Part shown: one piece after another, positions 5,585 to 9,704 of the stretch | Layout: each line of letters begins with the position of its first letter | Position numbering within the stretch: the stretch's first letter is position 1 | Assembly: GCF_024721305.1 (NCBI RefSeq) | Contig: NZ_JAMXOD010000005.1 | Span: 1 to 64,000 of the forward strand | Reading direction: 5' to 3' | Length of the DNA stretch: 64,000 bases | Source: Aequitasia blattaphilus | Lineage (GTDB): Bacteria > Bacillota > Clostridia > Lachnospirales > Lachnospiraceae | The notes under the pieces: model-generated | The model's database searches: none | Told to the model about the DNA's origin: nothing | Seen by the model: the letters and a program-made list of their open reading frames with translations, nothing else | Made by a program: the position numbers and the translations under genes

Positions 5585-5887
5585 TCTTAATCCCTACTTT
5601 CTCTCAAAATATATACTCTTTATATAATTACATATTTTGCTTTTTTTGTCATCACGATTCTTATTCTTTCCTCCTTTCATTGTGCGGTTTGTCTCTTTTA
5701 AGGCTAAATTGATTATAAAAGAGCTTTCTTTTAATTGGGCGGGTTATGTCATGAATGACTATTTTTATGTCATAAACGACCCATTATTTCATTTCGATAA
5801 TATTTATCGATAGTTAGTTATCGCTACCCGTTTTGTTCCTATTGCAGTATAATAAAACCGCAAATGAATCGAAAGGAAAAACTTACT
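5585..5887 (+). promoter_or_regulatory. Palindrome-rich intergenic region ahead of the formate/nitrite-family gene
   Basis: This non-coding stretch holds several operator-like elements. Two near copies of TTATGTCAT(G/A)AA(T/C)GAC start 22 bp apart (about 5744-5759 and 5765-5780); each contains an inverted TGTCA-N4-(T/C)GAC core that resembles CRP/FNR-type sites in layout. A perfect palindrome TCGATAA-tat-TTATCGA lies at about 5794-5810 and overlaps a second one, CGATA-gttagt-TATCG. A consensus -10 (TATAAT, 5848-5853) follows, with no good -35, as expected for an activator-dependent promoter. The 5585-5700 part is the upstream region of the LytTR gene; I see no clear site in it. Confidence 0.55.
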
Positions 5888-6652
5888 TTGAATAGTTCAG
5901 AAAATACTCTAAAAATTTGTACCTCTATGGGTGTAAAAAAAGTTCATAAAACACTTCTCTCAAAGCTCATATTAGGTTTTATCGGTGGTGCAATGATATC
6001 TCTCGGGTATCTTGCATACCTTCGTATCGCAGCTGTATTCAGCGGAGCTTGGGAAGGAATAGGCCATCTGATTGGCTCTGCAATTTTTCCGATAGGCCTT
6101 ATTATAATACTGCTGGCTGGAGGTGAACTCGTAACTGGAAACATGATGGTTGTTTCCTCCTCATTATTTGAGAGAAAAATCACTTTAAAAGATTGGATTC
6201 TTAATCTAACTACTATCACACTTGCCAATGCCCTTGGTGCTCTTTTTGTTGCACTCTTTTTCGGACATTTATTAGGTTTAACCAGTCAGGGAATTTATTT
6301 GGAAAAACTATTGAGTCTCTGTCACCATAAGCTGGATGCTACCTTCCTTCAATGCTTCTTATCCGGTATTGGATGCAACTGGTTCGTTGGTCTGTCACTG
6401 TGGCTCTCCTATGGCGCCAAATCCGGCGGGGCAAAAATCCTAGCAATCTGGTTTCCTGTTATGTCCTTTGTTGTCATTGGTTTTCAGCATTGCGTTGCCA
6501 ATATCTTTTTAGTATCTGCAGCGATTATGGAGGGACACTATAGCTGGCTTGCATTTATTCAGAACTTCCTACCTGTTTTTCTTGGGAATATCGTTGGTGG
6601 TTCTGTATTTGTAGCTGCCTTCTACTATCTATCCTATTCTCCAAAAGAATGA
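5888..6652 (+). CDS. Formate/nitrite transporter (FNT) family channel
   Basis: About 254 residues with six membrane segments and the FNT half-helix loops (for example LAGGELVTGNMM and CNWFVGLSLWLSYGAKS, plus FQHCVANIFLV). FNT proteins are pentameric channels for formate, nitrite or hydrosulfide; the exact anion is not decided here. I prefer a TTG start at 5888, because AAAGGA at 5872-5877 is correctly spaced for it. The upstream ATG at 5864 lies only about 11 bases after a TATAAT and has no ribosome-binding site. No formate or nitrite enzyme gene is adjacent. The repeated operator-like elements upstream point to redox or anaerobic regulation, which is inference. Confidence 0.85.
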   Translation: MNSSENTLKICTSMGVKKVHKTLLSKLILGFIGGAMISLGYLAYLRIAAVFSGAWEGIGHLIGSAIFPIGLIIILLAGGELVTGNMMVVSSSLFERKITLKDWILNLTTITLANALGALFVALFFGHLLGLTSQGIYLEKLLSLCHHKLDATFLQCFLSGIGCNWFVGLSLWLSYGAKSGGAKILAIWFPVMSFVVIGFQHCVANIFLVSAAIMEGHYSWLAFIQNFLPVFLGNIVGGSVFVAAFYYLSYSPKE

Positions 6653-6703
6653 GAATCCCCTTGCTTTTCATTCAAAATTGGTATACACTGAGTTAGAAAA
6701 TAA

Positions 6704-6769
6704 ATGACGAAAGAACAAACGAGGTATTTTGGTGAGTGTTTTTGGTATCTAACTAAAGCAACTTTATAG
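6704..6769 (+). CDS. Candidate leader peptide 1 (21 residues)
   Basis: ATG 6704 to TAG 6767-6769 encodes 21 residues starting MTKEQTRYFGE and ending in FWYLTKATL. The codons for the aromatic and Leu residues near the end lie on segment A of the leader stem, so a ribosome paused there would block A-B pairing. No clear Shine-Dalgarno sequence precedes it and the possible promoter is very close, so translation is uncertain. Confidence 0.35.
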   Translation: MTKEQTRYFGECFWYLTKATL

Positions 6770-6817
6770 ATGATGAGTAAGCATTGTGGAGTCAAGGTTT
6801 ATTTGTCGTGCTTTTAG
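6770..6817 (+). CDS. Candidate leader peptide 2 (14-15 residues)
   Basis: ATGATG starts directly after the TAG of the first small ORF and encodes MMSKHCGVKVYLSCF, ending at TAG 6815-6817. Its last codons and stop lie on segment B of the leader. The abutting stop and start suggest re-initiation by the same ribosome. There is no independent ribosome-binding site. Confidence 0.3.
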   Translation: MMSKHCGVKVYLSCF

Positions 6818-6849
6818 ATACCTGTCTATATCAATCGATTGTTTCTGTG

Positions 6850-6876
6850 GATAGTGGGGTACTGCTATCTTTTTTT
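6850..6876 (+). terminator. Intrinsic terminator inside the MutS2-like leader
   Basis: GATAGTGG pairs with CTGCTATC around a GGTA loop (8 bp, two G-U pairs), followed at once by seven T. It lies 70 bp upstream of the ATPase start, in the gene's own leader, so it is likely conditional. Confidence 0.65.
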
Positions 6877-6946
6877 ATATCCAATTTTATACTTTCGAAT
6901 CATTTATTTTCAAAATCGACAGGTATTCTTACCGAAAGGATACAAC

Positions 6947-8839
6947 ATGAATAAAGATATACAAAACGCAGTAGAATTTAGCAAAATAAAAGACTTGCTT
7001 CTTTCTCTTACTATTAGCGATATGGGAAAAGAACTTATGAACACAAAAGAACCTTCCACACATTTAAATACGGTTCAAAAACGTTTGACAGAAACCAGTG
7101 AGGCTGTCACATTATTAAATGCAGGGAAGCAGGTTCCATTTCTCGGTGTTGGACAAATACAATATTTGACAACACGTATTATGAAAGGAAGTATCTTAGA
7201 AGTTGAAGAGCTTCTGGAGTATGCCGATTTTTTAAGAGGATTTCGGCAGATGAAGACCTTCTTTACAAAGCATTCCTTCGAGGCTCCTATACTCCTCTCA
7301 TACGCTCTTAGCTTACAAGAGTTTCAGGAGGTAGAGGATGAAATATACCGTTCCATACAAGGACGTCAAATAAGGAACGAATGCTCCAAACCTTTATCGA
7401 AGATACGAAAATCGATTCAGGATTTAGAGGCTTCCATACAAAAGACACTGCAGAAGTTTTTGCGGAACAACTCGTCTATTGTACAGGATCCTATTATTTC
7501 CTTAAAAAATGGACACTATACCATTCCCATAAAGACGGAGTTTAAAAATCATTTTTCCGGAAATATAATCGAAACCTCCGGAAAAGGAATCACGACATTT
7601 ATGGAGCCTTCAAGCGTTTCAAAAATGAACGCTGAGCTTCAAATAAAAAAGGGAGAAGAAGAACTGATTGTGTATCAGATTCTTGCGAACCTAACCGGAT
7701 TAATCTCGGAACAGCTCGACGAGATCAAAGCATCTATGGAGATTTTATCCGAGATTGATATTATATTCGCCAGAGCACGGTACAGTATTTCAATTGGCGG
7801 GAAGAGACCTCAGGTGAACAAAGAAGAATTCGTTTATCTGGATCAAGTTGTTCACCCACTACTTGATTCCAATGCTGTTCCCCTTACGCTAAAGCTTGGG
7901 AATGATTTCCGGCTCCTTGCAATTACCGGAGCAAATGCCGGCGGGAAAACCGTCACACTTAAAACATTAGGCCTTGTAACTTTAATGACCATGTTTGGCT
8001 TACTAATTCCTTGCAAGGAAAAAACAAACATCTGTATCTTTGATGATATATTGATTGATATTGGCGATAATCAAAGTATGGAAAACTCTCTCAGTACCTT
8101 CTCTGCCCATATGAGTAATATCTCATCTATTTTAAATAGTGCCGGACGAAATACTCTGGTTCTATTGGATGAGCTTGGAAGTGGAACAGATCCAAAAGAA
8201 GGGGCTGCTCTTGGAATTTCCATCTTGGATTCTCTCTATCAAAAGGGGTCTTTAATCCTGGTCACAACACATTACGGTGAAATCAAAGAGTATGCCAGAA
8301 AGCACGCAGACTGCGAAACTGCTGCAATGGACTTTGACCACGATACACTGTTACCAAAATATAAGCTCCTCCTTGGAGAAACCGGGGAAAGCGGTGCCAT
8401 CAGCGTGGCAAAGAGAATGGGGATACAAAGAGATGTTCTGAAGAATGCAAAAAACCTTTTAGACAGTAACTCCTACTCCACAGAAAAACTTGAATTTCAA
8501 AAGATTCAGGAGAAGACAAGCCCCCTGAAAACAGAGATTCTCCTTAAAAAGGGAGACCGTATTAAAATAAGCGAGCAGAAAGACTGGGGACTCTTTTATG
8601 ATATGGTAGATTCACATATTGCAAGAGTCTATATGAATCATGGGTTCTTAGAAATGCCTCTTAAAAAAGTAACTCTTTTAGAAAGCCGGGATCAACTATA
8701 TCCCCCTGATTATGATTTTGAAAGCCTGTTTGAAGATTTCTCAGAAAGAAAGAAGCGACGTGATTTAGACCGGGGATCTAAAAAAGCTTTAAAGCAATTA
8801 GACAAAGAATCGAAACTTAGAAAAGATGCTGCCAATTAA
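6947..8839 (+). CDS. MutS2-like ATPase lacking the Smr domain
   Basis: About 630 residues from ATG 6947, which has CGAAAGGA upstream; a longer in-frame reading from 6839 runs through the terminator and is rejected. The order is MutS core and lever helices (about 1-300, including a coiled region at 180-300), the ABC-type ATPase with Walker A GANAGGKT near residue 328, the signature region NSLSTFSAHMSNI, Walker B LVLLDELGSGTD near 405 and a His switch in TTHYGE, then a helical part and a KOW-like stretch (KKGDRIKISEQKDWG). Typical MutS2 is about 780 residues and ends in a Smr nuclease-like domain, which is absent here. MutS2 of Bacillus subtilis has been reported to act on collided ribosomes; KOW domains often contact ribosomes. 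Role here is unproven. Confidence 0.85.
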   Translation: MNKDIQNAVEFSKIKDLLLSLTISDMGKELMNTKEPSTHLNTVQKRLTETSEAVTLLNAGKQVPFLGVGQIQYLTTRIMKGSILEVEELLEYADFLRGFRQMKTFFTKHSFEAPILLSYALSLQEFQEVEDEIYRSIQGRQIRNECSKPLSKIRKSIQDLEASIQKTLQKFLRNNSSIVQDPIISLKNGHYTIPIKTEFKNHFSGNIIETSGKGITTFMEPSSVSKMNAELQIKKGEEELIVYQILANLTGLISEQLDEIKASMEILSEIDIIFARARYSISIGGKRPQVNKEEFVYLDQVVHPLLDSNAVPLTLKLGNDFRLLAITGANAGGKTVTLKTLGLVTLMTMFGLLIPCKEKTNICIFDDILIDIGDNQSMENSLSTFSAHMSNISSILNSAGRNTLVLLDELGSGTDPKEGAALGISILDSLYQKGSLILVTTHYGEIKEYARKHADCETAAMDFDHDTLLPKYKLLLGETGESGAISVAKRMGIQRDVLKNAKNLLDSNSYSTEKLEFQKIQEKTSPLKTEILLKKGDRIKISEQKDWGLFYDMVDSHIARVYMNHGFLEMPLKKVTLLESRDQLYPPDYDFESLFEDFSERKKRRDLDRGSKKALKQLDKESKLRKDAAN

Positions 8840-8864: not shown

Positions 8865-9704
8865 ATGAAAACAATTGAATTCAACAACATAAAGCTCTGT
8901 ACAGAAAGCTTCGGTAAACCAGAAGACCCTGCCATCCTTTTAATCATGGGCTCTGCAAGCTCTATGGTATGGTGGGAAGTTCCCTTTTGTGAATTATTAG
9001 CAGAAAATGGATTCTTTGTCATACGATATGATAACCGGGATACAGGTGCTTCTACCTGTTATCCAGTAGGAAAACCTGATTATACTTTGGAAGATATGGC
9101 AGATGATGCCATAAAGATTTTAGATGGATATGGAATTTCGAAGGCTACTATTATGGGAATGTCTCTCGGTTCTGTGATTACACAAATCGCCGCACTTCGC
9201 CATCCCGACAGAGTTTCCGGAATTATCCTTTTAGCATCCATGTATTTTGCCGAAGGCGCCGACAGGCTCCCCGGCTCCTCACCAGAGGTGACACAGTTTT
9301 TTGAAGAGCTCTCTATGAAAGAATCTCCAACGGACACAGACGAACTCGTTGAATTTGCTCTTAGTCAATGGAAAATGACGAATCAAAGTGATCTTCCTCA
9401 TGATATCGACCATATTCGCAAAATGATTTATGTGGATGTCCGTCGCGCCACTAACTATGCAAGCAGACTCAATCATTCTTTTGTACCGGCAACTGGTGAT
9501 GCGCTTCTTCGTATCAGCGAAATCTCTTGTCCATGCCTCGTTATTCATGGAACAAAAGACATTGTAATTCCCTATGTTCATGGTGAGATGCTGGCAAAAA
9601 CAATTCCCGGAGCCAAACTCTTAACCTTAGATGGTGCCGGCCATGAGATGCATCCTCTGGATTACTCCATTATTGTGAAAAATATTTGTGAAATTTTCCG
9701 ATAA
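8865..9704 (+). CDS. Alpha/beta-hydrolase family enzyme
   Basis: A 279-residue protein with the complete fold signature: LIMGSASSMVWW (oxyanion region), the RYDNRDTGAST loop, nucleophile elbow GMSLGS, the acid in HGTKDIVIP, and the catalytic His in GAGHEMHP. It resembles the aclacinomycin methylesterase / RdmC-like and haloperoxidase-like group, but the substrate cannot be assigned. TGGAGGA precedes ATG 8865 and the gene begins 25 bp after the MutS2-like gene, so it may be co-transcribed with it. Its last 35 bp overlap the end of the convergent DUF2085 gene. Confidence 0.85.
   Translation: MKTIEFNNIKLCTESFGKPEDPAILLIMGSASSMVWWEVPFCELLAENGFFVIRYDNRDTGASTCYPVGKPDYTLEDMADDAIKILDGYGISKATIMGMSLGSVITQIAALRHPDRVSGIILLASMYFAEGADRLPGSSPEVTQFFEELSMKESPTDTDELVEFALSQWKMTNQSDLPHDIDHIRKMIYVDVRRATNYASRLNHSFVPATGDALLRISEISCPCLVIHGTKDIVIPYVHGEMLAKTIPGAKLLTLDGAGHEMHPLDYSIIVKNICEIFR

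Follow-up and report, generated by a model that had tools for sequence, protein, structure and literature searches.

A candidate ribosome-mediated transcription attenuator upstream of a Smr-less MutS2-class ATPase gene in Aequitasia blattaphilus, with comparable leaders in other Bacillota

The window analysed here is a stretch of 64,000 nucleotides from Aequitasia blattaphilus, a member of the Lachnospiraceae (contig NZ_JAMXOD010000005.1, positions 1 to 64,000, forward strand). It contains a gene for a 630-residue ATPase of a MutS2-like class without Smr domain, preceded by a leader with the following elements, all of which lie on the forward strand.

6661-6689, +: weak promoter-like site, TTGCTT (6661-6666), a 17-nt spacer and TACACT (6684-6689)
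6721-6724, +: Shine-Dalgarno sequence GAGG of the leader ORF, in the same alignment columns in the relatives L004 and L096
6732-6752, +: leader ORF, GTG AGT GTT TTT GGT ATC TAA, encoding the peptide MSVFGI, identified by comparison with relatives
6744-6752, +: anti-antiterminator arm A, GGTATCTAA, within the leader ORF, defined by its pairing with arm B
6798-6805, +: TTTATTTG, resembling the NusG-type TTNTTT pause motif, of putative function
6814-6822, +: arm B, TTAGATACC, partner of arm A, from folding
6819-6861, +: possible antiterminator, 6819-6822 with 6858-6861 and 6826-6829 with 6851-6854, from folding
6849-6877, +: intrinsic terminator, stem 6849-6870 and T run 6870-6876, from a terminator scan
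6918-6929, +: element A', GACAGGTATTCT, an alternative candidate partner for arm B just upstream of the Shine-Dalgarno sequence of the gene, from a pairing test
6923-6943, +: hairpin that would mask the Shine-Dalgarno sequence of the gene (AAAGGA, 6935-6940), by eye from the predicted fold
6947-8839, +: gene of the Smr-less MutS2-class ATPase (630 residues), from the ORF list, domain searches, a structure model and a profile comparison

An ATPase with the MutS2 core, the loss of its Smr domain and a KOW-like segment had all been proposed in an earlier, sequence-only reading of this locus, and all three are borne out. The domain search detects a MutS_V ATPase domain in the protein, which possesses the MutS lever/clamp and the ATPase core with its Walker motifs, and its match to the mutS2 profile TIGR01069 ends at position 535 of 790. 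No Smr domain was detected in this protein by the same search, and none of the 34 members of the Smr-less alignment A8 gave an Smr match; the canonical 791-residue MutS2 of the same genome carries both an Smr and an MSSS/SH3 domain. Profile comparison of eight Smr-less with eight canonical C-termini supports KOW/SH3 homology (95%, E 3.9e-8, 44 columns), and residues 538-579 form five strands in the structure model. This part is counted as divergent, since neither the window protein nor the A8 members match the Pfam MSSS family. A conserved C-terminal tail, LYPxDYD...RK, takes the place of the Smr domain; the C-terminal profile found three matches among sequences of solved structures, the best at E 0.31 and none credible. 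In the absence of the C-terminal Smr domain, the class is placed beside MutS2 rather than within MutS2 proper. The name endonuclease MutS2, carried by the NCBIfam family (TIGR01069) and by the annotation of one relative (L035), conceals this class and is probably wrong for it, because the nuclease-like Smr domain is missing. Identity with KamC, the reactivase ATPase of lysine 5,6-aminomutase, was rejected (207.7 bits against a cut-off of 300 bits for NF052383). An ORF of 279 residues (8865-9704), which by eye resembles an alpha/beta hydrolase, begins 25 nt past the ATPase gene and may be co-transcribed with it. The host genome also encodes a protein with NFACT_N, a domain of RqcH.

The leader anatomy is best appreciated by comparison with L004, a relative of the same genus whose protein is 76% identical to that of the window and in which the attenuator layout is kept. 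Its leader peptide is identical (MSVFGI), with a silent change, GTG for GTT, at codon 3, and its terminator lies at the same place with partly different stem letters. The promoter-like site, too weak to be reported by the consensus promoter scan, has a counterpart there by eye (TTGATT-17-TACACT, same place). The arm A core GTATCT is kept in the aligned relatives, except in L255 (GTATTT). The sequence-only reading had placed the sensor in two abutting small ORFs, 6704-6769 and 6770-6817, which are not kept in relatives: the first is open and of the same length in L004, with no 21-codon ORF in L096, and the second is broken by a stop in L004. The ORF that is conserved, 6732-6752, lies in another frame than these two. 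Conservation in the leaders of orthologues thus holds for the stems and for this ORF, not for the pair initially named; the seven-T terminator was recovered as described. No Rfam family matched the window at gathering score, and no Rfam leader was matched in eight loci at E values up to 1; of the two matches obtained, one is a purine riboswitch elsewhere in L035 and the other a BSnc120 match in L004, weak and far below gathering score. A search for a second copy of the leader in the genome gave 17 matches at E up to 10, none convincing (best non-self E 0.34).

The distribution of the class was established with a profile (A1) built from 16 Smr-less proteins, the matches of which are bimodal in the order and phylum genome sets. 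Of 295 genomes in the order, 63 carry the class, with 64 matches of at least 664 bits and a next best score of 608 bits; all 64 extend to the profile end except those in G473 and G324, and the matches checked from 608 bits down end before it or have longer frames. In the phylum, at least 662 bits are reached in 31 of 398 genomes, for each of which two matches were listed; the next score is 629 bits, and G715 and G902 cover the profile only partly. The C-terminus of the Lachnospiraceae form matched at least 428 relatives, 80 of which were kept, including Lactonifactor longoviformis, Faecalicatena orotica, [Clostridium] symbiosum and Eubacterium plexicaudatum. A first scan of genome contigs with the window protein gave no matches, and the patterns used found no relatives among viral contigs. 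A quick tree comprising 46 Smr-less proteins, 14 canonical ones and a single MutS1 groups all canonical MutS2 rows (support 95). The Smr-less rows need one label change and, with a support of 17 for the branch uniting them, would represent either a single clade or an ancestral group out of which canonical MutS2 arose. The nearest neighbour of the window protein is L004, followed by L096, from another family, and then by further families, a grouping which suggests that the gene may have been transferred between families.

The window gene itself shows no sign of a mobile location. The plasmid collection supplied four Smr-less genes; the records of L033 and L036 measure 2.6-2.7 Mb and that of L035 690 kb. 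In L034 (NZ_CP013204.1), a plasmid record of 115.5 kb from Paenibacillus, the Smr-less gene has the leader MSVNVLN and a tyrosine recombinase (integrase) gene at a distance of about 1.2 kb; this record indicates plasmid carriage at least once. The records of L033, L036, H5 and H8, filed as plasmids, are of chromosome size (2.63, 2.70, 2.90 and 2.11 Mb) and thus give no basis for it. One genome of the order (G496) holds two Smr-less copies, L064 and L109, with separate leader types, MSECVLN and MSVVVSK. A record named Klebsiella pneumoniae (CP069367.1; H11/H21) contains a MutS2-like stretch in four pieces, with 33.5% protein identity and 372 bases that are 65% identical to the window gene at the DNA level; it is possibly foreign sequence in that record.

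The recurrence of the leader was quantified against shuffled sequences and canonical mutS2 genes. Once the duplicates L038, L046, L040 and L120 had been dropped, 117 Smr-less and 35 canonical loci were retained; removal of four Smr-less loci with less than 450 nt upstream left 113, and seven were added to reach 120 for the terminator count. Among the 80 kept relatives, 73 had a usable start and 66 of them at least 450 nt upstream, 62 being new. Among 182 Smr-less genes, 153 have a terminator in the 200 nt upstream of their start, versus 8 of 35 canonical ones (106/120 and 47/62 for the two Smr-less sets; 33, 7 and 4 in the shuffled counterparts of the three sets), and these shuffle figures, like those below, are descriptions rather than probabilities, since the relatives are not independent and significance is overstated. 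With one rule for all sets (a Shine-Dalgarno match of at least four letters, 5-14 codons), a tiny ORF occurs in 103/113 and 54/62 Smr-less loci and in 6/35 canonical ones, for shuffle means of 63.1, 42.75 and 14.0. Such ORFs being common in shuffles, their mere presence is weak evidence and the peptide motif a stronger one: ML[SRNITV][VI][VILAFT] appears in 17/113 loci, in 26/62 of those fetched later and in 0/35 canonical loci (shuffle means 0.3, 0.1 and 0.05). When the leader ORF was chosen by Shine-Dalgarno sequence and start codon alone over the 182 loci, 10 of which have no tiny ORF of this kind, the peptide start M(L)[ST][VIA] was seen in 59/172 versus 3.6% in shuffles. A hairpin with TTNTTTR lies downstream of 27 of 124 leaders with motif-selected ORFs versus 3.5% of shuffles; the window has TTTATTTG but fails the hairpin test. 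L251, a member of the window's group in which no such leader ORF was seen by eye, was for that reason kept out of the seven added loci, so that it lies outside the terminator count, the count of leader ORFs chosen by Shine-Dalgarno sequence and start codon alone, and the locus-by-locus pairing counts.

What is conserved in the peptides is essentially their beginning. In 19 leaders of the window's type, picked partly for fit and six of them (L109-L117) assigned by leader and N-terminus rather than by tree, codon 2 is Ser in 19/19 and codon 3 Val in 13/19. Related peptides are MSVASI, MSVVVSK, MSVVVSQ, MSIVVSK, MSWVVSQ, MSAVVSK, MSAVGTK, MSARSSK and MSVIVLL, to which MSVVSI, MSVVS and MSGVFSK can be added by eye, together with leaders reduced to MSV-stop in L249, L252, L253 and L254. 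L092 offers only MSNRF or MDCIYFPGEDT. Within the window's type, the Ser of codon 2 is kept with varying codons (AGT, AGC). Past codon 3 the frame is not kept and the RNA string GTATCT mostly is, read as GGT ATC TAA in the window versus GTA TCT AAA TAG in L109; the first leader codons thus seem to be conserved as peptide and the remainder as RNA. Elsewhere, many Lachnospiraceae leader peptides have the form MLSVIVMEKIAK, and a group of Bacilli has peptides ending in ...VLN with the string GTTCTTAACTAA, the complement of which lies 84-88 nt downstream in all five loci tested (L034, L035, L081, L084 and L091). A macrolide reading of the Lachnospiraceae peptides (SIAVV, IFVI) was considered and not retained; neither of these two terms occurs in the available part of PMC10314930. 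Two Smr-less genes, L044 and L045, have very different leader peptides, MLADWWKSRKSR and MLADWWNTKKCR. In the deep-branching L256, with the leader MSVVS, pairing of the leader with the downstream region beats 200/200 shuffles.

The single leader of the window folds weakly better than its shuffles (z -1.2; 25/200 as good), and its A:B helix is not unusual alone (p 0.19); A:B reaches p <0.05 in 4/19 loci taken singly, the window not among them. The case for an attenuator is built on its recurrence in other loci. In an alignment of five related leaders, A:B and the terminator are paired in 90/90 cells with two pairs changed on both sides, a result equalled by 20/500 shuffles. The antiterminator is 96% paired in the same five leaders, with no both-side changes and a covariation score matched by 445/500 shuffles. 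Of the compensatory changes on which the sequence-only reading had relied for a check, two pairs are thus seen in A:B plus terminator and none in the antiterminator. In a free transcript reaching 6863, the probabilities are 0.90 for the A:B helix and 0.01 for the antiterminator. Masking a ribosome-sized stretch at the start codon or at codon 3 brings A:B to 0.04 or 0 and the antiterminator to 0.59 or 0.61, and a mask at codon 6 gives 0 and 0.44; in L004, the antiterminator reaches 0.95, 0.93 and 0.90 for the same three positions. The complete terminator wins in every folded state (0.94-0.98 in the window, 0.99-1.0 in L004), so that the antiterminator must act by timing and not by equilibrium. 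The mutually exclusive stems proposed earlier are in this sense supported by folding, the antiterminator being favoured only before the terminator is complete.

Over the 124 loci, the terminator 5' arm has a mean upstream pairing of 0.566, which goes up to 0.632 when the leader ORF is masked, versus 0.580 with random masks. The pairing rises by more than 0.1 in 38/124 loci and falls by as much in 9/124, with little change elsewhere; random masks give 9/124 and 4/124. The A':B pairing has a p value of 0.005 in the window, L004 and L096 and is below 0.05 in 10/19 loci, and it is not preferred when the whole transcript is folded. Since A' overlaps the hairpin that masks the Shine-Dalgarno sequence, arm B could also release translation of the gene, by analogy with the proposal made for vmlR in the available part of PMC9226507.

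Beyond the anatomy, conservation, distribution and homology reported above, we infer stalling and antitermination in the leader and an action of the protein on ribosomes. The preferred reading, to which we give a probability of about 0.7, is a ribosome-mediated transcription attenuator controlling an inducible, predicted ribosome-splitting, Smr-less MutS2-class ATPase. The ribosome-sensing attenuator of the sequence-only reading is supported by comparison, with a leader ORF other than its pair. In growing cells, ribosomes would finish the tiny ORF at once and its 3' half would pair with arm B; the terminator would then form and transcription would end at about 6876. An inhibitor holding a ribosome on the first codons would cover arm A, leaving arm B and the stretch behind it free to base-pair with the terminator's 5' arm, and transcription would continue into the gene. 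The ATPase would most likely bind blocked ribosomes and split them, acting alongside the housekeeping MutS2 as its inducible counterpart. Bacillus subtilis MutS2 is reported to split collided ribosomes; its KOW part binds uS10, and it detects collisions through two parts, of which SMR is one (PMC10897456, available part). A role in inducible ribosome rescue or antibiotic tolerance would fit this published work by analogy. The absence of the collision-finding SMR part from the window protein counts against the ribosome-splitting reading; with this recruiter gone, the protein may, as a guess, recognise single blocked ribosomes by its own tail. The NFACT_N (RqcH-type) protein could take the split product.

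Several other explanations were weighed against this attenuator of a ribosome-splitting factor. The leader might sense slowed translation in general, caused by starvation, shortage of charged tRNA or any inhibitor, rather than a drug class, with the gene encoding a general rescue factor. The variation of the peptides past their first codons and the loss of frame past codon 3 would suit such a sensor, as would the control by WblC, which is reported to respond to many different inhibitors as well as to amino acid starvation (PMC12421871, available part). The Ser of codon 2, kept in the window's type despite the AGT/AGC change, argues against it, and we consider it unlikely. Also against it, starvation leaders usually repeat one amino acid and precede biosynthesis genes. 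An amino-acid attenuator in the strict sense was discarded, since the gene has no biosynthetic role and some leaders consist of MSV-stop only.

The attenuator could also be real and its product act on DNA, in recombination or mismatch processing, in keeping with the DNA-related activities described for MutS2 proteins (PMC3200294, available part) and with the NCBIfam name endonuclease MutS2. The Smr domain is missing, however, the KOW part, which binds uS10 in Bacillus MutS2 (PMC10897456, available part), is retained, and control by stalled ribosomes points to translation, which makes this alternative quite improbable. Hardly credible, finally, is the proposal that the terminator merely ends the transcript of the upstream ORF (5864-6652) and that the tiny ORFs are due to chance. 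This 262-residue ORF does end at 6652 on the same strand, the promoter-like site 6661-6689 is weak, and short ORFs are frequent in shuffles (63.1/113). Against this, the Shine-Dalgarno sequence, ORF, stems and terminator all lie past the end of that ORF, the same parts recur before Smr-less genes with different annotated neighbours (L034, L035), and both the peptide motif and the terminators are more frequent than in shuffles or in the canonical control.

Returning to the attenuator with a ribosome-splitting product, the nature of the inducers may be approached through the length of the leaders. Several ABC-F uORFs that answer blockers of early elongation have three to four codons, namely MIN, MR[I/M], MK[L/Q], MAGN and MLV (available parts of PMC12421871, PMC10201436 and PMC9226507), that of tiaA being longer (MVGDDDISG; PMC12421871, same limits). 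The MSV-stop leaders are just as short as these uORFs of three or four codons. Chloramphenicol stalls best with Ala, and less with Ser or Thr, before the last residue (PMC11832420, available part), a preference for Ala/Ser/Thr with which the small residue before the presumed stall site in M-S-V or M-L-S-V is consistent. By analogy with both features, we infer a drug class, peptidyl transferase centre inhibitors, as candidate inducers; the leader may also respond to any block of translation. A broader proposal, that Smr-less MutS2 proteins form a large, so far unrecognised family of antibiotic-inducible ribosome-rescue factors in Bacillota, distinct from ABC-F and HflXr, induced by peptidyl transferase centre inhibitors that stall ribosomes on M-S-V or M-L-S-V, is put forward tentatively, with the odds somewhat against it. 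The recurrence of the leader/gene arrangement in many Bacillota suggests, from genome comparison, that it may be a widespread response to blocked ribosomes. B. subtilis has been reported as likely to have ribosome-splitting factors beyond MutS2 (PMC11633108, available part). If the present reading is true, a family that retains the splitting ATPase, has lost the collision-sensing Smr domain and stands behind a ribosome-sensing switch would directly qualify as a candidate for such an extra factor in its host genomes, and inducible antibiotic tolerance would be connected to collision rescue in Lachnospiraceae as well as in further Bacillota.

Each of the mechanisms involved is known, and it is their combination and the family that appear undescribed: full-text searches gave no title or abstract start on the Smr-less class or its leaders, subscription papers and preprints being outside these searches and a mention inside a paper being possible. 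HflXr offers a parallel to the window gene as an attenuator-controlled paralogue of a housekeeping ribosome-splitting factor, although it is a GTPase of the HflX family and not a MutS2-class protein. B. subtilis MutS2 has in common with the window protein the ATPase core (PDB matches 9a5o and 7qv3) and, through the comparison with canonical Lachnospiraceae MutS2, the KOW part; the window protein differs by the lack of Smr, a shorter stretch before KOW, its conserved C-terminal tail and the attenuator upstream. Among leaders, a close counterpart is that of the ABC-F gene vmlR of B. subtilis, with, as predicted for the window, a uORF in the anti-antiterminator stem, a TTNTTT pause motif, a terminator and a Shine-Dalgarno hairpin (PMC9226507, available part; the motif is named after this source and PMC10314930, available part). 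Its uORF is Met-Ile-Asn and its product an ABC-F ATPase, in contrast to the Met-Ser-Val start and MutS2-class gene found here (PMC9226507, same part). The msrD leader (MsrDL, MYLIFM) combines a six-codon peptide, transcription attenuation and a terminator, a combination also proposed here; its peptide is a different one and stalling occurs at its stop codon (PMC10314930, available part), in contrast to the window's type of leader, in which conservation is limited to the first codons. The cplR leader of Clostridioides difficile, found by its conservation, places, as predicted for the window, a short uORF and a terminator before a ribosome-acting ATPase, the uORF being MR[I/M] and the gene an ABC-F gene, unlike those of the window (PMC10201436, available part).
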